From assembly GCA_022729235.1 (NCBI GenBank), contig JALDAJ010000001.1:310001-374000 (forward strand): a DNA stretch of 64,000 nucleotides. The letters run 5' to 3'. Numbering within the stretch: position 1 is the first letter of the stretch; each line of letters starts with the position of its first letter. The DNA comes from Candidatus Nanohalarchaeota archaeon (lineage in GTDB: Archaea > Nanohalarchaeota > Nanosalinia > Nanosalinales > Nanosalinaceae). The position numbers and the translations under genes are program-made. The notes beneath the pieces were generated by a model. The model did no database searches. It was not told where the DNA came from and saw nothing but the letters and a program-made list of their open reading frames with translations. This document shows positions 1-40,690 of the stretch, in pieces.

Positions 1-1752
1 CGTGACTATAATATCCTGTCTACCGGTTGAATCAAACCTCTTCTCAAAGGTGTTATCCTCTCCGAATCTCTCAAGATTGTAAACGTATTCATCACTTGCT
101 CCGCCCTGATACATTTCTGTTATATCGTATTCATCATGATCCAGGCTCAGACCTAGACAGTCCACCGGGTCGACCGCGAGTTCTGGACGGTAAAACTCTG
201 TATCGATCCATTCTACGCCGAGAAGTTCCTGTGTATCATGCTGTTCGAGCGCGGTATAGATAGGTATTTCCTGCATCTCTCCATCAGCCTCTCCAAGCTC
301 GATTATCTCTGGCTCTGGAACCTCAAACTCACCTTCATCATTTATATCAAACCGTGAAATACTTGGCTCCGGGAGTTCCTCTCCATCTGCATCCTTTAGA
401 GAGGTGCCAATTCCGATATAACTTAAAACATCTTCCAAACAGTTGTCGGCACCCGATTCTACCTCAACCCTTGGATAGACTACGTCCCTGAATATCGGGT
501 CATCATCGCTGTACTGTTTTCTCTCATGGTTGATATCCGCTCCAGCATTAGCCTGCACAAAGCCCTCAGAGCCTTCACATACTAGATACTCCAGATTATT
601 AGCCAAGTACCTGTGCTCTTGTATTAAATCGCCCTTATCAAGAAATTCCTCTACGTCAAATTCGTCAGAAGTAATAGTTGGGACATTAACCATCCTTACA
701 CGGAACGCGTTCATGCTCTCAGGCCATCCGCCTTCACCAAAGTTGTAATCGTATAATCCTGTTCCTCTTCCATCTCTAACATCAAGTTCAAATCTCCCTT
801 CACCGATACTATATTTCCACGCTCTCTCCCCAAAGGATAGGAGCATCGGTCCTTTAACACGATAAGCTGTGTCAGAGGTAGTTTCCACTTCATCTTCTTC
901 AGGGTCAACCCAGTGAGGATTATCGGAGTTCTCCCAGTACTCCAATGTCTCTTCCGTGGTTAAAACCCCTTCCGGATAGAAGACAGCTGCTCTCTCCGCA
1001 CGTGTGAAGTCAGGAGCATTTTCATCTGTAATACCGCTATCGACGAGTTTTTCGTTGAGATGCATAGCCATAAGCCCAATATCTTCTATCACAAATGTTT
1101 GTTCATTTTCAAACCCGGTTGCTCCGTAAATTCCTTGAGCTGAGTGTTCCTCCCATTCTGACAATCCTAAGTCATCCAGCGAAACCATTCCTGAAATGAA
1201 ACTCAACGGATCAGTGACTATAGGATCTGCTCCCATGCAGTCCCCCGTGAAGGAGGTTTCTTTAACTAGGGTCTTGAGCGGATCTTCTTTCTCCTCATCG
1301 TCTTTCTCACCCCATCCGAAGTAAGTAAATTGACCCCCATCATCACCATCCAACATGCTATCTAGTTCATCACCGCTTTCCGTATCCAAGTCGTCCACAT
1401 CTACATCGACAAGGTGCATCTGTAAGTCCTCCGGTCCCAATTCGTTCTCTCCTGAAGAGGCAGGCTCCGGATCAAATTCATCATGCTGGTAGACCATCGA
1501 CCCGTAGGCACACTGCTGGGCGGCGAGCATGTTCCAGACCACTAGTCCGCGGAACTGTTTTTCTGCCTCATACGGGTCTTCAACGTCTTCTCCTATCGTC
1601 ACCACGCCGTCCAGTGACTGGAGCTGTTCCATTAGATTATTCGTCCTTGGTTCGAGCGAGTGGTCGGTTATGGTTGTGAGGGCTCCGATAAACGCCGCTC
1701 CTATCATGACCGCGACCGCCATGACACCGACATTGCTGATGATTCCTTTCAT
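1..1752 (-). CDS. Giant acidic exported protein with pilin-like N-terminus (partial)
   Basis: An open frame runs from ATG at 1752 to the window edge (584 codons, no stop), so the C-terminus is missing. Residues 1-25 are MKGIISNVGVMAVAVMIGAA and more hydrophobic residues: one positive residue plus Gly, then a membrane helix. This resembles an archaeal class III (prepilin) signal or a simple N-terminal anchor. The rest is hydrophilic and very rich in Asp/Glu, with five scattered Cys (contexts QQCAY, GDCMG, LVCEG, DNCLE, VDCLG) that could form disulfides outside the cell. The start lies one base after the stop of the upstream 60-aa gene, so it is the last visible gene of the pilus-like operon. 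No family is recognised. An exported or pilin-anchored adhesin-like protein is an inference from topology and neighbours. Confidence 0.75.
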   Translation of the reverse strand, partial: MKGIISNVGVMAVAVMIGAAFIGALTTITDHSLEPRTNNLMEQLQSLDGVVTIGEDVEDPYEAEKQFRGLVVWNMLAAQQCAYGSMVYQHDEFDPEPASSGENELGPEDLQMHLVDVDVDDLDTESGDELDSMLDGDDGGQFTYFGWGEKDDEEKEDPLKTLVKETSFTGDCMGADPIVTDPLSFISGMVSLDDLGLSEWEEHSAQGIYGATGFENEQTFVIEDIGLMAMHLNEKLVDSGITDENAPDFTRAERAAVFYPEGVLTTEETLEYWENSDNPHWVDPEEDEVETTSDTAYRVKGPMLLSFGERAWKYSIGEGRFELDVRDGRGTGLYDYNFGEGGWPESMNAFRVRMVNVPTITSDEFDVEEFLDKGDLIQEHRYLANNLEYLVCEGSEGFVQANAGADINHERKQYSDDDPIFRDVVYPRVEVESGADNCLEDVLSYIGIGTSLKDADGEELPEPSISRFDINDEGEFEVPEPEIIELGEADGEMQEIPIYTALEQHDTQELLGVEWIDTEFYRPELAVDPVDCLGLSLDHDEYDITEMYQGGASDEYVYNLERFGEDNTFEKRFDSTGRQDIIVT

Positions 1753-1753
1753 G

Positions 1754-1936
1754 TTAGCACATCTCTATCCCTGTGGCTTCGGCTATCACGTTGTGGAGGT
1801 TTGTGCATCCAAGATATGATTGTTCGGCACCGGATATAAGACCAGGGATAATAGACAGTATGACCCATAGAAGGAATGCTGCAAGGAGGAATCCTACAAG
1901 TGTCCAGACAGAATAATCAGCTATACCCTTTCTCAT
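1754..1936 (-). CDS. 60-aa membrane protein with pilin-like N-terminus
   Basis: The product begins MRKGIADYSVWTLVGFLLAA and has one long hydrophobic helix (about residues 9-31) followed by a short polar tail with two Cys, the second being the last residue. The RKG-I-A start fits the archaeal class III signal pattern (basic residues, Gly, then a hydrophobic residue), so a prepilin-type peptidase could cut after Gly4. The ATG overlaps the stop of the 29-aa gene upstream (ATGA), and its own stop is one base from the next start, so it is translationally coupled inside the ATPase/platform operon. A minor or major pilin subunit is plausible. A simple one-TM accessory protein is the alternative. Confidence 0.7.
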   Translation of the reverse strand: MRKGIADYSVWTLVGFLLAAFLLWVILSIIPGLISGAEQSYLGCTNLHNVIAEATGIEMC

Positions 1937-2022
1937 ACCGGTAAAGCCCCCGTCCAGAGTTTTAACAGCGCTGCAGCGATAACTACGGCGGCGACTATGC
2001 TAGCTAATATCTTTGGCTCCAC
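1933..2022 (-). CDS. 29-aa membrane microprotein
   Basis: A GTG-started frame of 29 codons fills the gap between the platform protein and the 60-aa gene exactly. It has a Shine-Dalgarno-like AGGTGG directly 5' (2024-2029, just after the platform stop) and its TGA overlaps the next ATG as ATGA. The peptide begins MEPKILASIVAAVVIAAALL and ends with a short KLWTGALPV tail, so it is one hydrophobic helix. The perfect fit of SD, start and coupled stop supports a real gene. Function is unknown; a pilin-like or platform-associated TM peptide is an inference. Confidence 0.55.
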   Translation of the reverse strand: MEPKILASIVAAVVIAAALLKLWTGALPV

Positions 2023-2029
2023 ACCACCT

Positions 2030-4222
2030 TTACGCATCCGCGATTCCACCTATCATACCTCCGAACAGCAGCGCCACTATCAGCAGGGTTATGGTGTAGA
2101 AGAACATTCCTGAAATAAGTATTTTTCCGATGAACATGTTGCGGTAGGTTACGTTCTCTCCCTCTGCTATCTTCATGTAGAACGTTCCAAGAATGTATAG
2201 GAGCTGTATCAGGTATATGCCGACCACGAACTGCAGGAGTTCGGGTTGGATAGCCGCGTCCAGGTTACCAAGGATTCCTGAGAACTCCGCGCCCTCGGCT
2301 CCACCCCCGGCACCGTCTCCAGGCAGTTCCTGTGAAGCACCTTGGAATTGCTGTGAAAGCCCGAACATCGCTGTGATTATGGTTTGGGACATTCCGACCG
2401 CGACCCCGGAAACTATCGGCGCAAGCAGGTACGCCAGCATCTGGATAGTGGTCATCGTCTCCTCCATCAAATCGTTGAGTTGTTCCTGTGTCCTGTGGAT
2501 GTTATCCAGGTAGCGCGAGATCGTTGTCATCGCCATCGCCGCCACGTGAGTTCCTTTCTCCGAGGACTCAAGTATCGCTTTCATAACAGTCTGTATCATC
2601 TGGCTGGGGAACTCCTGGAGCGCGCCGTATTTCTCGTTGAATACAGCATCTTCAAAGGTCATACCCATCTCCTCGACGTTTCTCGATGCTTTCCCGAAAA
2701 GGTCTGATATCTCGAGGTCGGACGTTGCTTCCGATGCCTGTTTCAAGGCAACCTCAATCGGCGTTCCACCCGAAATCTTGTTCCCCAGCTGGAAGAGGGC
2801 GGTCGGGAACTGGCTCTCGATCTCTCTCAGGTGGTTCTCTGCGTTCCTCCTCTCGATGCTACCAAGTATCAGCACTAATCCTATACCCCATCCTATCCCC
2901 AGGGTTATCGAGACGCTCCTGAGAAGCAGCGGGATTGGGTTGAGGCTGTCTCCTGAGAGAAACATCGTAGGCACCATGCCCGGGTCGACATTCGGGACAG
3001 GATAGAAGAACGGAGCTGTTAGGTAACCGACCATGCCGTACAGCGCGATGATGAAGAAAACCGCGACACCGACCGGCCAGACCGGGACCCGGAACTCGCT
3101 TTCTCCTACAGTGAACGTATACTTGCCGCGTTCAGGCAGGCTATCTGTACTGACAGCCTGTGAAGATACTGTTGGAGGTCTTGAGGATAGTATGCGTTGC
3201 ATGAACCAGTACAGGAATCCTGGGAGAAGGAAGTTGAACAGGACTATCAGGTGGAGCGGTCTTATCACATCACCCATGAATACGGAGATCAGAGGGAGCA
3301 TTATCATGCCGAGAACCGGAAGCATAGCACCCATCGCGTTGAGTATCATTACCGGCGTCTTCAGGGACTGGGCGTAGTGCTTCATCTTCTCCTGTGTACC
3401 ATCCAGGATGCGGTCGATAGCGTCCTGCAGGAGCTGTTCTCTGCGGTCCGAGTCAGGGTCATTCATCGCCGCCTGCAGTAGCTGCAGAGACTCCAGGAAG
3501 TCATCATTGAATCCTTTCCAGTTACGGGTATAATCGTTCAGCGCGTCTTCTATACGGTTGAAATTTCCGATCTCCACCTTCCAGAGAACTCCTTTTAGAT
3601 CCTTAGATATCGGTCCTTCAAGGTTTAAAGCGGCGAACCGTACTGCGCCCTCGAGGTTAGGTGATGAGCGCATGTAGACAACCATGTAGAGTATCGCGAG
3701 AATCATCTCCCCGCTGCTCCTGATAACCTTGTTCTTCGCCGCGTATATCGGCTTGTAGTAGGTGTATACGCCTGCAGTGAGAGGTATCGAAAGCAGGAGA
3801 AGCATCAGGGAGTTCGGCAGAAGGTACCCGAGTAAAACGTTTAAGCCGAAAAGCAGGAACCAAAGTGTGAAAGATACAAAACCTGTGAACACTGCTGCCG
3901 ATAAGACCATTCCAGGCGTTACGTCCCAGTCAAGCAGTCTTAGAGAAGGAGTAAGTTTGTCTCTAGTCGTCTCTCCCGCACTGATACTTAGTATCGATCC
4001 AGATTTTATGCATAGTTTTTCGTAAAACGTTTTCTCCCTCTCCCTTACCTCCTCTTCACGGTACTCCTGGTACTCCTTCGAATAACCCTGTCTCGACGAG
4101 GTGTTGTACGGAGGTTGCTCCACGTCTCTTTCCAGGTTATCAACTATCTCTCGTATCCTGTCCTTTTCCTCATCATCCAGACCGTCGCGTTCATCATCTC
4201 CGATTCTGTTGTCTTCACTCAT
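2030..4222 (-). CDS. Type II/IV secretion platform protein, double T2SSF (ArlJ/TadC-like)
   Basis: A 730-aa polytopic protein expected to be the inner-membrane platform on which a GspE/ArlI-type ATPase turns to assemble pilins. A long charged N-terminus (about 1-100) precedes membrane helices near 107-155. A cytoplasmic helical T2SSF domain follows (about 160-285), then helices near 290-345 and 385-470. A second T2SSF domain starts near 475 (AENHLREIESQFPTALFQLG, then GNKISGG, a typical T2SSF signature), and the last helices are near 600-730. Archaeal ArlJ/TadC-like proteins often have this duplicated layout. It sits 5 bp downstream of the ATPase gene and upstream of two tiny TM proteins and the giant pilin-like protein, i.e. 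a pilus/archaellum-like operon. Confidence 0.88.
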   Translation of the reverse strand: MSEDNRIGDDERDGLDDEEKDRIREIVDNLERDVEQPPYNTSSRQGYSKEYQEYREEEVREREKTFYEKLCIKSGSILSISAGETTRDKLTPSLRLLDWDVTPGMVLSAAVFTGFVSFTLWFLLFGLNVLLGYLLPNSLMLLLLSIPLTAGVYTYYKPIYAAKNKVIRSSGEMILAILYMVVYMRSSPNLEGAVRFAALNLEGPISKDLKGVLWKVEIGNFNRIEDALNDYTRNWKGFNDDFLESLQLLQAAMNDPDSDRREQLLQDAIDRILDGTQEKMKHYAQSLKTPVMILNAMGAMLPVLGMIMLPLISVFMGDVIRPLHLIVLFNFLLPGFLYWFMQRILSSRPPTVSSQAVSTDSLPERGKYTFTVGESEFRVPVWPVGVAVFFIIALYGMVGYLTAPFFYPVPNVDPGMVPTMFLSGDSLNPIPLLLRSVSITLGIGWGIGLVLILGSIERRNAENHLREIESQFPTALFQLGNKISGGTPIEVALKQASEATSDLEISDLFGKASRNVEEMGMTFEDAVFNEKYGALQEFPSQMIQTVMKAILESSEKGTHVAAMAMTTISRYLDNIHRTQEQLNDLMEETMTTIQMLAYLLAPIVSGVAVGMSQTIITAMFGLSQQFQGASQELPGDGAGGGAEGAEFSGILGNLDAAIQPELLQFVVGIYLIQLLYILGTFYMKIAEGENVTYRNMFIGKILISGMFFYTITLLIVALLFGGMIGGIADA

Positions 4223-4227
4223 CTAAC

Positions 4228-6498
4228 TCACACCTGCCGGTCGAACCACTCCTTCCACCGGGCGTATATCCTCTCCGGGTCCTGCTTACCGTACTCTTCG
4301 CCTACTCTCTCCGCCAGTATGTGGTAGCGCTGGTTCGCTTTTACCGTGAAATCTGCCTCAAGGAGCTCCGGTCTATCATTCTCATTTGCGGCTTCCACCA
4401 TGTCCTGTTTTATCTTTTTACGGAGCTGTATATTGTTCCAGACCGCCTCCCAGTCATTCTTCCACTCCCTGATGTTCTCCGCAATCCTGTTGAGAACCAT
4501 CGACTCACCGTTCTTCAGGGTATCTGTAGGCATCAGTTTGTCCTCGTTGCTATCGTAGCGCATCAGGTCGACAAAGGCGTTCTCCTCCTGTGGGTCGTTG
4601 GTCCATTCTTTCCTGACCTCGGTGATCCCTGTGACACGCCGGTAAGTGTTCAGACCGTCCGGACTCTTGATCTTGTTCACACTTACAACGACATCGGTCG
4701 CCTTGAAAGACGTTTTCGGGACACCGAGGTCGTTCACGACACGGTCATATACTGAATAGGGAGACTCTCCGTGGATGGTTCCGCCGACAAAGTTCGCGAC
4801 GGCTCCGACACGCATCGCCTCGTAAAGGGTTTTCGCCTCGTCACTCCTTACCTCTCCGATAACCAGTGCAGAATCTCCGAGACGTAGCGAGGTCCTGATA
4901 GCTTCGTCCGCTGCAAGCTCATTTTCCACCTGTGTGATGACGCTCCTGGATTTCATCCGTTCAACGTTGTAACCCAGGTCTTTCATCTGGTTGATAGGCA
5001 GCTCCAGCGTATCCTCTACCGATATAATCCTGGTCTTCTTCAGCAACTCCAGCATCGATGCGCCGAGTATCGACGACTTTCCTGCCCCACGTGTCCCCGC
5101 GAAAAGCACTGATCGACCGCCGTCAACTATGAAAGATAGTAGTGCTGCTCCCATCGGATTTATCATACCCTTATCGATGAAAAGCGGTAGAGTCCACGCC
5201 CTTGAGCGGTGTCTTCTGAACGCGAACGCAAGTCCCTCCGGCGACAGGTTCTCCTGGATTATAGCGACACGGGCGCGTCCACCAGGAACCTCTGTGTCGG
5301 TATCCAGGACCGGGTTTGCCTCGTCCAGAGGGCGTCCAGACTGGATACGGAACCTTGTAGCCCATGACTCCGCCTCTTCCTTAGTCGGTATCAGGTTGGT
5401 CTCGCACTCCTCGTATTCCTGGTGGTTGATGAATATAGAAGAGCCTCCAACCGGCGAGTTGATAAACACGTCCTGTATCTTGGGGTCACTAAGGAGAAGT
5501 TCCAGCACACCAAGACCTGAAGTGTAACGGTTGAGTATCGACGTAAGCTCGTCCAACTCCTCTCTCGTCAATCTGATATCCATCTGGTTGGCGATATCCC
5601 GGAGCATGTCCCTCCCTATATTTTCGAACACCTGCCTCATACGTTCCGGGCGGGCGAACTCTCCTGACTCGGGTTCGTGCGACGCCATAAACCTGCGCGC
5701 AGCATCAAGTAAGGTGTATTTCTCCTCGGTCAGGTTGAACTCCGGCGGGTTAACGTGGTAGACCGGCTGCACCTTGTCGGGTATCTTATAGATCGATACT
5801 TCGATATCATTCCGTACCTCATACCTGTCGATTTCTTCACCTCGCTCAGGAGGCAGTGACATAAACTTGGTAAGCATGAAGTTCGGTCTCACAAGAGGGT
5901 GGAAAAACTCCCTGTAAACCTCTCTGTCGCCGATGTGATGACCTGTTACAAAATCCTCATCTCTCGCCCTCTGTATCATCCTTGTCTCTTCCAGCCGGTC
6001 ACTAATCGGGCGGATAACATCGTTAAGAAAGTACTTGATACACCGCTTTCTCTGCGGGTAATCATCGCTCATCTCTGTCTTCAGGCGCCTCTCCTTCCTT
6101 CTCAGCTCTACGTAAGCCCCTACAGGGTCGCGCCTTAACTGATCGATAACTATCTGCTGTACCTCAGGTACATGATCCGCATAAAAAGAGTCACATTTCT
6201 CCCCGCCCTGCTCCGACAGGTAACCCTGGGAGGATATACCCTGGATAGCATCTGCGATTTCCTTAAGCATCGATACCTCTTCCTCCCCGTACTCATAATC
6301 CCTTGACTCTGATAGAACCACTGAGGACGCGTCAGGTACTTCCTGGAGGATGTTGATAACACGGGACATGACCTCGGGGTAGTCCTCTATCGACGCGCCG
6401 TAAATCGAGCCGAGAGTATTGACTTTAACTGTACCGCTCTCATCATCGTACTCGTAGTCGAAAACATCAAGATTTCTTACGTCTGCCATACCCAGCAT
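4228..6498 (-). CDS. Type II/IV secretion system ATPase (GspE/ArlI/TadA-like)
   Basis: A 756-aa hexameric-type motor ATPase. Walker A is GTRGAGKS near residue 466; the Asp/Glu box VEDTLELP follows. A Walker-B-like stretch SALVIGEVRSDEA lies near 546 and the His box GGTIHGES near 580, all typical of secretion ATPases. A domain of about 300 residues precedes the usual N-terminal domain (which holds SDPKIQDVFINSP near 340), and a tail of about 120 residues follows the core, so it is longer than bacterial PilT/TadA. It is first in the operon with the platform gene 5 bp away. Start is ATG 6498; ATG 6489 (MADV) is also possible. A symmetrical AT-rich inverted repeat lies just upstream. Confidence 0.92.
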   Translation of the reverse strand: MLGMADVRNLDVFDYEYDDESGTVKVNTLGSIYGASIEDYPEVMSRVINILQEVPDASSVVLSESRDYEYGEEEVSMLKEIADAIQGISSQGYLSEQGGEKCDSFYADHVPEVQQIVIDQLRRDPVGAYVELRRKERRLKTEMSDDYPQRKRCIKYFLNDVIRPISDRLEETRMIQRARDEDFVTGHHIGDREVYREFFHPLVRPNFMLTKFMSLPPERGEEIDRYEVRNDIEVSIYKIPDKVQPVYHVNPPEFNLTEEKYTLLDAARRFMASHEPESGEFARPERMRQVFENIGRDMLRDIANQMDIRLTREELDELTSILNRYTSGLGVLELLLSDPKIQDVFINSPVGGSSIFINHQEYEECETNLIPTKEEAESWATRFRIQSGRPLDEANPVLDTDTEVPGGRARVAIIQENLSPEGLAFAFRRHRSRAWTLPLFIDKGMINPMGAALLSFIVDGGRSVLFAGTRGAGKSSILGASMLELLKKTRIISVEDTLELPINQMKDLGYNVERMKSRSVITQVENELAADEAIRTSLRLGDSALVIGEVRSDEAKTLYEAMRVGAVANFVGGTIHGESPYSVYDRVVNDLGVPKTSFKATDVVVSVNKIKSPDGLNTYRRVTGITEVRKEWTNDPQEENAFVDLMRYDSNEDKLMPTDTLKNGESMVLNRIAENIREWKNDWEAVWNNIQLRKKIKQDMVEAANENDRPELLEADFTVKANQRYHILAERVGEEYGKQDPERIYARWKEWFDRQV

Positions 6499-6500
6499 TA

Positions 6501-6523
6501 TTATTCAAGTAACTATTGAATAA
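6501..6523. promoter_or_regulatory. Inverted repeat in divergent promoter
   Basis: TTATTCAA and TTGAATAA form a perfect 8-bp inverted repeat around a 7-bp centre, in the 33-bp gap between the ATPase (minus) and the coiled-coil gene (plus). It may act as a two-way TATA region or as an operator for both operons. The sequence shows the symmetry; its role is inferred. Confidence 0.5.
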
Positions 6524-6531
6524 AAGATGGG

Positions 6532-6975
6532 ATGCCCCAGCAGGATATCGTAAACCGGCTCGCAGACCAGGTCAACGACTTTAACCGCAGGGTAAGAGAC
6601 CTGGAGGAGAAGATAAGAAACCTTACAGCAAGAGTCAATACCCTGGACGACACCGTTCTCAACAAGACCAAGTCCCTATCCCAGGATGTTCAGGGTCTGG
6701 AGGACGAGATAGAAGAGGTCAGGGACAGGATAGCAAACATAGAGGTCGATATCAAGGAGATCAACCGCGAGAAGCGGAAGTTCGTGTCTTCACAGGAGCT
6801 GGAGGAGATAGAGAACTACATGGATCTTATGAACCCTATCCATTCTTCCTTCACTACAAAGAAAGAGGTCAAAGAGATAGCACAGGGGAACTCCAGCGGT
6901 CTTTCAAGAGAGCAAGTGGAGAAAATCGTGGACAGAAAGATAAAAAGCATGGAAAACCAACCAGATAATGAATAA
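6532..6975 (+). CDS. Coiled-coil protein, archaellum-accessory (ArlC/D/E)-like
   Basis: A 147-aa soluble, charged protein. Residues about 5-90 are an almost unbroken heptad coiled coil (for example DLEEKIRNLTARVNTLDDTV). A short conserved-looking segment follows, ELEEIENYMDLMNPIHSSF (about 89-107), then TTKKEVKEI and a basic helix. Coiled coil plus a short helical cap resembles the cytoplasmic ArlC/D/E ring proteins of euryarchaeal archaella, though I cannot confirm homology. It is transcribed divergently from the pilus-type ATPase and is followed 12 bp later by a second coiled-coil gene, which supports a job with that machine. An unrelated structural coiled coil is the alternative. Confidence 0.6.
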   Translation: MPQQDIVNRLADQVNDFNRRVRDLEEKIRNLTARVNTLDDTVLNKTKSLSQDVQGLEDEIEEVRDRIANIEVDIKEINREKRKFVSSQELEEIENYMDLMNPIHSSFTTKKEVKEIAQGNSSGLSREQVEKIVDRKIKSMENQPDNE

Positions 6976-6987
6976 GAGGGTGACATC

Positions 6988-7839
6988 ATGAAATTCCAGC
7001 TGTTCGGGAGACTGAGGGACGATGAATCAGGCGGAACAGATCAGCAACGTGAAGCGCCACAAGGAGCTCCTGGACAAGAAGAGACGCCACAGGCACTTGG
7101 CGGAGGTAGTCTTGAAAGAACAGTTGATAACCTGTTCTCACAGGGTTACGCTGAAGAGGAGATAAGACAGGAACTCCAGGGACAGTATTCACAGACAGAA
7201 ATCGACCGCGCTATAAACAATGCGGTTGCATCAACAGCCACTCCTGACACCGGTCCTGGACCGAAACCCATGACACCATACCAAAGTGAGGAAGATGCAG
7301 TAAGCCCTGTAGATGAGGGTTTCTCACAAAACGATGATACTATGGATCAGAGAGAACAAGAACCACAGCAACCAAACCCGCAGCCAGCGCCTCCTGCGCC
7401 ACAGGAGCAGACACCGCAGGAACCACAGGAAGAACAGGGCGCCCACGGCTCTAACGTGGAGGAGCTGGTGGAGACTATCGTCGCTGAAAACTTTGACCGC
7501 GTCGAGAGAGAGTTCGAGAACGTTTACCGGGAAATCGATGAGCTGAAAGATACAGCAGAAGATCTAGAGCAGCGGGTCCACGATCTGGAAGTCCGTGACG
7601 ACGAGGACCAGACACAGTTCATACAGAAAATGGATGAGATGGAGGAACACATCGACTCTTACCAGTCACGTATAGGCGGGCTGGAGAAGGCTTTCCAGCA
7701 GGTGCTTCCTTCCCTGGTCGACAACGTCAGGGACCTGACAGATCTTGTGCAGGATATCAAGCAGGAAAGAGGGATTGAAACGGATAAGAACGTTTCAAGC
7801 CAGGATATTGACGATATAGACGTTGAAGACTGGAACTGA
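6988..7839 (+). CDS. Coiled-coil protein with helical N-domain, ArlC/E-like C-terminus
   Basis: A 283-aa soluble protein in three parts. About 45-75 is a small helical motif (DNLFSQGYAEEEIRQELQG), like repeats that bind partner proteins. About 80-155 is a low-complexity Pro/Gln linker. About 155-270 is a coiled coil ending in GLEKAFQQVLPSLVDNVRDL. That last part resembles the end of ArlC/E-type proteins, where a 'LPxLxxNVRxL' pattern is common as I remember it; a profile search is needed. The gene follows the other coiled-coil gene by 12 bp with GAGGGTGA upstream of its ATG, so the two are an operon. It converges on the 4-TM gene block with only 4 bp between stops. Confidence 0.6.
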   Translation: MKFQLFGRLRDDESGGTDQQREAPQGAPGQEETPQALGGGSLERTVDNLFSQGYAEEEIRQELQGQYSQTEIDRAINNAVASTATPDTGPGPKPMTPYQSEEDAVSPVDEGFSQNDDTMDQREQEPQQPNPQPAPPAPQEQTPQEPQEEQGAHGSNVEELVETIVAENFDRVEREFENVYREIDELKDTAEDLEQRVHDLEVRDDEDQTQFIQKMDEMEEHIDSYQSRIGGLEKAFQQVLPSLVDNVRDLTDLVQDIKQERGIETDKNVSSQDIDDIDVEDWN

Positions 7840-7843
7840 TTTT

Positions 7844-8347
7844 TCAGTCACTGTTTCCGCCAGCGGTTATAGCCACGATGATAAGCAGGAATAGCAGTAT
7901 AAGTACAGGCATAACCACTTCCTGCCACGTATCTTCTATATCACCGAGGAACGCACCCAGATCTGCCTGCGTAACAAACGCACCTATGAAAACTATTGCC
8001 GCAATCGCTACAGCCGACCACAGCCTTATACTCTCCGTCTTCTCGTCCTCAGCAATGTCAATCCCCGCCACCGCCATCAAAATCATTAAACCCAGGAACC
8101 CGAAAACACCAAAAGTAAGGGCTGCAGCCAGATTAGTCATTATACCTGGCGGTAGGAAGAAGTACGCACCTCCGATCGCCAGGAATGCGACAGCCAGAGA
8201 TATAACCCCGTTTACCTGCTCATCCTCACTGATAACCTTATACTTCTCAAGGACGCCATAGGTCACCGCCAGAACCAGCAACCAGGGAAAGAACAGCTGG
8301 AAAACATCCATATCCGCCATCATCAACACTATCTGTTCGAATGCCAT
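7844..8347 (-). CDS. 4-TM membrane protein, paralogue of 8351-8932
   Basis: A 167-aa hydrophobic protein with about four membrane helices (near 15-35, 45-65, 75-95 and 105-160) and short charged loops. Its first half (FFPWLLVLAVTYGVLEKYKV, then ISEDE) matches the neighbour 8351-8932 in pattern: FF-x-PxLL-x-VxYxVLE-x-VIxE. It also shares LTxGVxGxLGL in the third helix, so the two are paralogues. It is the last gene of a four-gene run (9301 to 7844) with gaps of 3-4 bp or overlaps. No characterised family is recognised. Proteins of this style recur in DPANN genomes (from memory). A membrane component of the nearby pilus-like system is an inference. Confidence 0.7.
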   Translation of the reverse strand: MAFEQIVLMMADMDVFQLFFPWLLVLAVTYGVLEKYKVISEDEQVNGVISLAVAFLAIGGAYFFLPPGIMTNLAAALTFGVFGFLGLMILMAVAGIDIAEDEKTESIRLWSAVAIAAIVFIGAFVTQADLGAFLGDIEDTWQEVVMPVLILLFLLIIVAITAGGNSD

Positions 8348-8350
8348 TCT

Positions 8351-8932
8351 TTATCCCTCCGAATCAGGTCCCGGCCCATGTTCGAAGAGTAAAGGCCTCA
8401 ATGTACTGTCTCCGCTCGGATCACGCATAGTGAACCAGAGAACACCTAATATCACAGCAGCCCATATAAGACCGGTATCAAAGCTGTACTGGACAACCCC
8501 GGCAATCGCATCTATCGCTGTTTCTCCTTCACCAAGCGTCAAGGCATCAAGACCTCCCGATACAGTAAATGCCACGGCCGCGATAATCAGTCCCAGAACA
8601 GCCATGACATTCTTCTTGAAGTAATCCGTGGTACCTGTAAGCCCGAGGAGCATGAAAAGCCCCAGAACACCTATGACTCCAACCGTCAGCGTCCCCAGGT
8701 AGCTGACGAAGAACATCTGGTATGCCGGATTTTGAACTATGAAGAATGATACAAAGAACGCGAATATTAAAGCGATAAGTGGCGGAAAGTTATCTTTCTC
8801 TTCTATAACCGGTACATTCTCTAGAACCGCGTAGAAGACCAGATACGATAGTAAGAACGGCAGTACTCCTATGAAGAAGTCTGCCTGTTCTAGTGTTGTT
8901 AACAACTGCGTGAAACTCCCTACATCAGCCAC
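8351..8932 (-). CDS. 4-TM membrane protein, paralogue of 7844-8347
   Basis: A 193-aa polytopic protein: helices near 20-40 (FFIGVLPFLLSYLVFYAVLE), 50-68, 75-97 and 105-125, and one near 145-165. A short cytoplasmic or external tail rich in Gly/Pro/Asp follows. It is clearly related to the downstream 167-aa protein (same PFLL/VLE/VI-E signature and GVIGVLGL helix) but has an extra helix and a longer C-terminus. It lies in a tight operon with an 85-aa 2-TM protein upstream (4 bp). Function is unknown; the pair could form a heteromeric membrane complex. Confidence 0.7.
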   Translation of the reverse strand: MADVGSFTQLLTTLEQADFFIGVLPFLLSYLVFYAVLENVPVIEEKDNFPPLIALIFAFFVSFFIVQNPAYQMFFVSYLGTLTVGVIGVLGLFMLLGLTGTTDYFKKNVMAVLGLIIAAVAFTVSGGLDALTLGEGETAIDAIAGVVQYSFDTGLIWAAVILGVLWFTMRDPSGDSTLRPLLFEHGPGPDSEG

Positions 8933-8936
8933 CTAA

Positions 8937-9194
8937 CTATTCACCTTCATAACCCTGCTTCCTGTTGTGCAGGTTCATCAGCCATAGCTCGCGGGCTATA
9001 ATCATCAATGCGAGCATCGTGATCCATGGCTCGATTATCCGACCGAAGGAAACGATTCCTACATTCTGCGGCGCCCAGAACATGGTGTACAACGCAACGA
9101 CTATAGCTCCGAGCGAAAGAATGGCTATAACAAACTCGTCGAGGATATTCTCGACCTGGTAGAAGTATTCGTGTAGTTTTCTGTCATTCATCAC
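8937..9194 (-). CDS. 85-aa 2-TM membrane protein
   Basis: A small protein with a charged N-terminus (MMNDRKLHEYFYQVENILDE) and two membrane helices (about 20-42 and 55-72). The C-terminus is basic/acidic (LHNRKQGYEGE). The start is either GTG 9194, which overlaps the upstream microgene's stop as GTGA, or ATG 9191 directly after; both indicate translational coupling. It is the second gene in the run 9301-7844. I do not recognise a family. Confidence 0.65.
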   Translation of the reverse strand: MMNDRKLHEYFYQVENILDEFVIAILSLGAIVVALYTMFWAPQNVGIVSFGRIIEPWITMLALMIIARELWLMNLHNRKQGYEGE

Positions 9195-40600: not shown

Positions 40601-40690
40601 CGTCGGGGGCGGGATTTGAACCCGCGTGGGAGCATTGCACCCCCAGTGGCTTAGCAAGCCACCGCAATGGCCAGGCTATGCGACCCCGAC
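40601..40690 (-). tRNA. tRNA-Ser (anticodon GCU)
   Basis: A class II tRNA read on the minus strand. The acceptor stem GTCGGGG pairs with CCCCGAC and the discriminator base is G. The D arm follows, then anticodon stem GTGGC/GCCAC with loop TTGCTAA (anticodon GCT at 40653-40655), a long variable arm (GGGGGTGCAATGCTCCC) and T arm GCGGG-TTCAAAT-CCCGC. The long variable arm and G discriminator fit serine. CCA is not encoded and there is no intron. A TATA-like element (TTTTAAACA, about 40718-40728) lies 28-38 bp upstream. Confidence 0.97.

Follow-up and report, generated by a model that had tools for sequence, protein, structure and literature searches.

A candidate Tad-like type IV pilus of nanohaloarchaea with an ordered series of pilin-like genes, a family-specific giant protein and leaderless subunits

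We asked what is built by a gene cluster that bears on how DPANN archaea, tiny and host-dependent, hold on to their hosts, and that lies at the left edge of a 64,000-nucleotide stretch of DNA (the window) from a Candidatus Nanohalarchaeota archaeon. The window spans bases 310001-374000 of a genome that consists of a single contig of 1,027,595 bases, and it opens on a minus-strand operon for an assembly ATPase, a membrane platform and a series of pilin-like proteins, among them a very large one, here called the giant. An earlier note, made from the letters of the window, had described this as a pilus/archaellum-like operon with the giant at its end. Machinery, gene series, gene order, leader pattern, peptidase and a contrast in conservation can all be read from the sequences, and with a probability of roughly 0.55 we take the locus to encode a Tad-like type IV pilus of DPANN archaea for host contact, with a shaft of mini-pilins and the giant in a tip complex.

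The motor is an ATPase/platform pair of the type IV filament kind, as the earlier note had proposed from the same pairing. The ATPase matched PF00437 at 49.7 bits, over the cut-off of 24.9 (Table 1), and carries the motifs GTRGAGKS (Walker A), VEDTLELP, GEVRS and GTIHG; the Walker A, Asp box and His box were invariant over 16 homologues. Its relatives by sequence in the PDB were AfGspE (2OAP, the best match), CpaF and FlaI. Of the two T2SSF domains ascribed to the platform, one scored 31.2 bits against PF00482, above the cut-off, and the second reached 22.8 bits against a cut-off of 25.2. This T2SSE/CpaF-type ATPase and T2SSF platform, together with class III prepilins and a prepilin peptidase in the genome, place the system among the type IV filaments. 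In the ATPase tree, the enzymes of such loci formed a clade of 33 with 100% support, on a long branch apart from ArlI and other pilus ATPases; support values are from the Shimodaira-Hasegawa-like approximate likelihood ratio test (SH-aLRT) only, and several branches are long. The clade comprises Woese-, Pace-, Nano-, Aenigm-, Diapherotrites-, Micr- and Nanohaloarchaeota, a few Thermoplasmata and one Haloplanus metagenome-assembled genome. The relatives in the Haloplanus assembly and the Thermoplasmata (L084, L081, L083, L085) may reflect transfer or, for the assembly, contamination. We also note that the locus ATPase holds in-frame inteins near the Asp box at L062:4712-8701 (genome G004) and L061:4447-10458 (G021), where PF14890 and LAGLIDADG matches lie well above cut-off. 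An in-frame insertion near the Asp box was seen as well in G018:C13 (a 1252-aa frame); the pilus ATPases of G003 and G024 contain comparable large insertions, likewise in frame.

The operon extends beyond the left window edge on the minus strand, where it was read on in a fetched flank (L009, genome 302001-321000; window position equals L009 position minus 8000). From ATPase through platform, slot 1 and slot 2 to the giant, successive gaps are +5, -20, -4 and +1 bp, which bears out the close spacing that had been described for the ATPase, the platform, the 60-aa protein with one transmembrane (TM) segment and the large acidic protein. A supposed 29-aa open reading frame among them is actually 38 aa long from a GTG or 34 aa from an ATG. 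The placing of the giant at the end was an effect of the window edge, because the operon continues past it: the full-length giant of 808 aa (genome 309326-311752) occupies slot 3 of 13 and is followed by 11 genes, ten pilin-like and one for Alba. Their products are, in order, proteins of 61, 40, 81, 135, 129, 134, 142 and 341 aa, Alba, and proteins of 101 and 81 aa. Intergenic gaps from the platform to slot 11 are at most +39 bp and mostly -4 or -10 bp, and gaps of 46 and 109 bp precede Alba and slot 12, respectively. The order of a multi-TM trio, a coiled-coil pair, ATPase, platform, slots 1-11, Alba and slots 12-13 was found in 10-11 genera, and a phosphoglycerate mutase gene adjoins the locus in 10-11 genera. 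The order of coiled-coil pair, ATPase, platform and pilin-like series is kept in 10-12 nanohaloarchaeal genera, and the 13-slot series in 10-11 genomes; shared by at least ten genera, the arrangement is more than chance. Distant DPANN loci retain the multi-TM genes, the coiled-coil pair, the ATPase and the platform, many of them also with a run of pilin-like genes, and a simpler version of the locus is present in Woese-, Pace-, Nano- and Aenigmarchaeota.

Type II secretion systems have the same ATPase and platform fold. With 2OAP as the best PDB match of the ATPase, and with some 13 subunits that differ greatly in size within a single operon and no obviously repeated major pilin, the locus could also encode a short pseudopilus, a type II secretion-like piston that secretes or presents a substrate and in which the giant would serve as minor pseudopilin or as cargo receptor. 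No secreted-substrate gene was recognizable, however, and several of the pilins, of 34-60 aa and consisting of a helix only, are better suited to a Flp-type shaft; we consider such a piston distinctly unlikely.

We then scored class III leaders uniformly in all proteins, by the presence of a [KR][G/A] motif ahead of the first hydrophobic stretch. Slots 1, 2, 8, 10, 11 and 12 carried the motif in every genome. For the 60-aa protein of slot 2, the leader in 10/10 genomes compared, together with a prepilin peptidase in the genome, agrees with the earlier suggestion that it is a class III-signal pilin. Slots 3, 4, 5 and 7 were mixed (7/10, 8/10, 5/10 and 7/9), slot 6 gave one doubtful case of nine, and slots 9 (0/10) and 13 (0/7) had the motif in no genome. 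Among 73 non-pilin proteins from the same loci, analyzed as a control, none had it. The window itself holds neither prepilin peptidase nor ArlH, as had been stated; elsewhere in the genome, a prepilin peptidase is encoded at 669.8 kb and an ArlH-like KaiC ATPase in a separate locus at 278 kb. The peptidase gene, at 669788-670732, lies beside another type IV pilus (T4P) locus at 665 kb. Its product scored 22.3 bits against PF01478 (E 1.9e-4), just below the cut-off of 26.5, and has retained both an N-terminal Asp and the GGAD motif; all 27 family and order relatives searched gave a homologue match, in some cases a fragment only.

The leaderless proteins were not explained by misplaced starts, since a stop closes the frame within 0-24 codons on the upstream side and no motif lies in the extension. 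For slots 4 and 5, the best alignment of each of the seven leaderless proteins placed its start Met at the mature +1 position of that slot's leader-bearing members; in comparisons with most other slots the best offset scattered, except between the related slots 4 and 5. Slot 13 likewise aligned with mature slot 12 at offset 0 in 7/7 cases. The same start at exactly +1 could not be confirmed for the leaderless giants, whose best offsets were -3, -1 and, in one, none clear. On the tree of ATPase plus platform, the minimum number of leader switches was two for slot 5, three for slot 3 and one for slot 4, with several nodes weak. This pattern of leaders is our most unexpected observation. Its simplest reading is that the leaderless subunits are produced already in mature form, the alternative being that they are anchors and not filament subunits. 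We propose, tentatively and at less than even odds, that the pilus is made in part of "pre-trimmed" mini-pilins, which would have lost the leader, carry Met at the position that the peptidase would expose and bypass that enzyme, with orthologous slots switching between the two states. A literature search by narrow phrases found no report of leaderless pilins. The leader counts of slots 6, 9 and 13, and of the giant, could also indicate membrane-anchored envelope proteins, a stator or cage like ArlF/ArlG or CpaB, with only the leader-bearing slots as filament subunits; secretion leaves ArlF at its full length, and an unknown protease cuts ArlG (PMC8667602). In slots 4 and 5, however, the same position alternates between leader-bearing and leaderless forms, and the leaderless ones begin precisely at mature +1, which would be expected were the trimmed form still in use; we regard this division of roles as unlikely.

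The giant is acidic and begins MKG/IISNVGVMAVAVMIGAAFIGAL. Members of its family measure 499-835 aa, and an alignment of twelve shows four invariant Cys (81, 172, 392 and 438) and a CxGxxGY-type motif. The idea of a single huge pilin-like subunit gave way to a giant that is one of a 13-slot series, is tandem-duplicated in two relatives and lacks the [KR]G/A cleavage motif in 3/10 homologues. The tandem giants belong to two genera (L046:9911-13994, 624 and 660 aa; L050:11029-15569, 835 and 583 aa) and apparently arose by duplication. A profile of the giant found only the nanohaloarchaeal family (16/60 genomes searched, always at a single locus), and no match was found in the viral contigs searched. 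At the order level, relatives carry large pilin-like proteins of up to 1488 aa at this position, which the profile missed.

We also compared conservation across the locus. By mean pairwise identity, the ATPase (78%), Alba (80%), phosphoglycerate mutase (69%) and the platform (62%) were well conserved, compared with the giant (18%) and the remaining pilin slots 1-11 (17-29%); between two members of one genus, the ATPase was 94% and the giant 47% identical. The putatively exposed parts change fast, as such parts would be expected to, while the motor is nearly fixed, and the giant is not special in this: the notion that it is specially hypervariable was rejected, slots 6, 7, 10 and 11 being equally diverged. 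Two Cys occur in almost every member of slots 2, 7, 8 and 9; these pairs, and the four Cys of the giant, are compatible with disulfides outside the cell.

A plausible picture of how the parts might work together draws on bacterial Tad pili. In Myxococcus, the Kil Tad pilus combines its major pilin with 14 minor ones, among them Flp adapters of about 59 aa and large modular tip pilins tuned to prey (PMC12075869), and the tip of the Caulobacter pilus is CpaL, with a pilin-like domain plus vWA (PMC13170226). Because the Tad pilus is the nearest working model, we place the giant in the tip complex and the mini-pilins in the shaft. The cytoplasmic ATPase ring, the membrane platform and a cytosolic ArlC-like ring of coiled-coil proteins would pull pilin-like proteins out of the membrane and stack them into a filament. 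The shaft would consist of one or more mini-pilins (slots 1, 2, 4 and 5; 34-81 aa), which are almost only a hydrophobic helix, like Flp pilins, and the initiating tip complex of the larger pilins (slots 7-11) and the giant. The exposed tip would make contact with the haloarchaeal host, much as bacteria use TadG/CpaL and the Kil tips. The single prepilin peptidase, whose gene lies 355 kb away, would process most subunits; slots 9 and 13 would never be trimmed and slot 6 essentially never, and these may be anchors or subunits synthesized already "mature." Filament, shaft and tip roles and host contact are plausible by this analogy.

Several results weigh against this assignment. A pilin fold of the giant was not demonstrated: a single-sequence AlphaFold2 (AF2) model of the part in the window had a predicted local distance difference test (pLDDT) score of 31.6, a PDB search with the giant profile found no relative, and Pfam searches of the giants gave non-significant matches only (MscL, 15.9 bits; Sheath_initiator, 14.2 bits). 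No TadE/F/G or vWA match in Pfam, by which a bacterial Tad pilus would be recognized, was found in the giants or larger pilins searched. In the three homologues without a [KR]G/A cleavage motif there is no possible upstream start, and because 3/10 members lack the peptidase motif, the giant is perhaps a membrane-anchored surface protein rather than a filament subunit. Finally, the pilin slots are all about equally variable, so variability does not mark the giant as a host receptor.

The Alba gene (genome 305825-306103; L009:3825-4103) lies inside the operon between slots 11 and 12. It is about 80% identical across genera and is found there in all family loci that reach that far, and also in the distant locus L058. 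A nucleic acid-binding gene so placed could point to a DNA-uptake (competence) pilus that feeds a nucleotide-scavenging symbiont, and DNA-uptake pili have been proposed for Undinarchaeota (PMC7414124) and Nucleotidisoterales (PMC9563170). No ComEC/ComEA-type gene was noticed in the stretches read, where these genes were not searched for systematically, and the Alba protein has no export signal, which leaves a competence pilus improbable. Alba is, moreover, a general chromatin protein.

The coiled-coil genes are divergent from the operon, as had been noted (6532-6975 and 6988-7839, plus strand), and the pair begins 33 bp from it. Coiled-coil protein 2 scored 28.6 bits against FlaC_arch PF05377 (cut-off 27.8); the remainder of the protein is low-complexity coiled coil, and the match is weak. 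Hamm et al. suggested a surface-attachment role for such proteins and likened them to a viral attachment protein (PMC11291902). Neither protein here shows an export signal or TM segment, and a cytosolic ArlC-like ring is therefore likelier than surface attachment; we hold this more natural role loosely. The match to FlaC_arch, just above cut-off, would also suit an archaellum-like rotary filament. The locus, however, has no KaiC/ArlH gene and its ATPase falls outside the clade of the genome's own ArlI, and we rejected membership in the archaellum on these grounds, so that of the earlier "pilus/archaellum-like" the type IV filament part stands and the archaellum part does not. A separate archaellum-like locus at 278 kb has a KaiC/ArlH-type gene (157.6 bits to PF06745), and a rotary filament encoded in the window, already largely refuted, retains next to no probability.

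That locus is one of three further T4P-type loci in the genome, at 172 kb, 278 kb and 665 kb. The 172-kb ATPase was found in 11/11 relatives at 72-79% identity, and among the relatives G001-G010 the window ATPase was 69% identical in G004 and 74-81% in the other nine; G011, G014 and G017, whose genomes are fragmented, gave distant matches only. Near-universal ATPases in the family are those of the 172-kb and window loci only, the 278-kb and 665-kb systems being patchy. The window locus is one of only two pilus loci in every well-covered family genome.

Features in the window are listed in Table 1. Beside the coiled-coil genes, the multi-TM pair and the 85-aa TM protein (window 7844-9194) are a constant part of the locus, and the first two recur in many DPANN groups. 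An AF2 model of the 167-aa protein has five long helices (pLDDT 73.8), and a fold search with it found no PDB relative (E 2.6 or worse). Elsewhere in the window, at 40601-40690 on the minus strand, 90 bases match a tRNA model of 71 positions, possibly with a long variable arm or an intron.

Table 1. Features of the pilus locus in the window, with coordinates in window positions
Feature	Position	Strand	Evidence and remarks
Slot 3, giant pilin-like protein, 808 aa, of which the first 584 in window	1..1752	-	continues to genome 309326; family alignment
Slot 2, 60-aa mini-pilin, putative shaft subunit, two Cys	1754..1936	-	class III leader 10/10 genomes; constant position between platform and giant
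Slot 1, 38-aa mini-pilin from GTG, 34 aa from ATG, no Cys	1933..2049	-	class III leader MRKG/G here; leader motif 9/9 genomes; 20-bp overlap with platform gene
Platform protein, 730 aa, two T2SSF domains, ArlJ/TadBC-like	2030..4222	-	PF00482; 62% mean identity in family
Assembly ATPase, T2SSE type, 756 aa	4228..6498	-	PF00437 49.7 bits; PDB relatives; 78% mean identity; clade apart from ArlI
Coiled-coil protein 1, 147 aa, divergent, lacking signal peptide and TM	6532..6975	+	
Coiled-coil protein 2, 283 aa, lacking signal peptide and TM	6988..7839	+	C-terminal part matches FlaC_arch PF05377
Multi-TM protein, 167 aa, kept beside locus, related to 8351..8932 protein	7844..8347	-	AF2 model
Multi-TM protein, 193 aa, same family as 7844..8347 protein	8351..8932	-	
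Small TM protein, 85 aa, same place across family	8937..9194	-	

The locus itself is already known; new are the full ordered set of pilins, the family-specific giant and the leaderless switch. Dark-matter pilins in DPANN had been anticipated in general terms (PMC6393860), and the pilins of such loci had been described as not annotatable, being small and poorly conserved (PMC9563170). An ordered list of 13 candidate subunits, the giant included, makes the question of host grip testable in existing co-cultures. If it is true that leaderless mini-pilins are assembled, they would be an exception to the rule of obligatory processing by prepilin peptidase.

Among known systems, Hamm et al. (2024) described two conserved loci, of which locus 2 comprises CpaF, TadC and coiled-coil proteins in cluster 2 DPANN; several proteins of both loci were detected in proteomics, and pilins were named for locus 1 only, none for locus 2 (PMC11291902). 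Matched by description and not by accession, the window locus fits locus 2 in its gene set, in its taxa (Woese-, Pace-, Nano-, Aenigm- and Nanohaloarchaeota) and in being one of exactly two near-universal T4P loci, and the 172-kb locus, with pilins and a coiled-coil gene, fits locus 1. The window locus differs from locus 2 as described in the 13 pilin-like slots found here, in the match of one coiled-coil protein to the cytosolic FlaC_arch and in the lack of export signal or TM segment in both. With archaeal type IV pili and the archaellum (Makarova et al. 2016, PMC4858521), the locus shares the ATPase and platform families, class III leaders, an A24-type peptidase, large putative adhesins (in some clades) and fast-evolving pilins; different here are a separate, DPANN-centered ATPase clade, the absence of ArlH, the fixed 13-slot order and the family-specific giant. 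Compared with bacterial Tad pili (Kil; CpaJKL), no secretin or TadZ was recognized, and the archaeal class III leaders, several leaderless subunits and the family-specific giant are further differences. Common to both are a CpaF-type ATPase, a two-part platform, helical pilins of Flp size and large modular minor pilins, and it is to the bacterial Tad pili with tip complexes, used for contact with prey or surfaces, that we liken the system described here.

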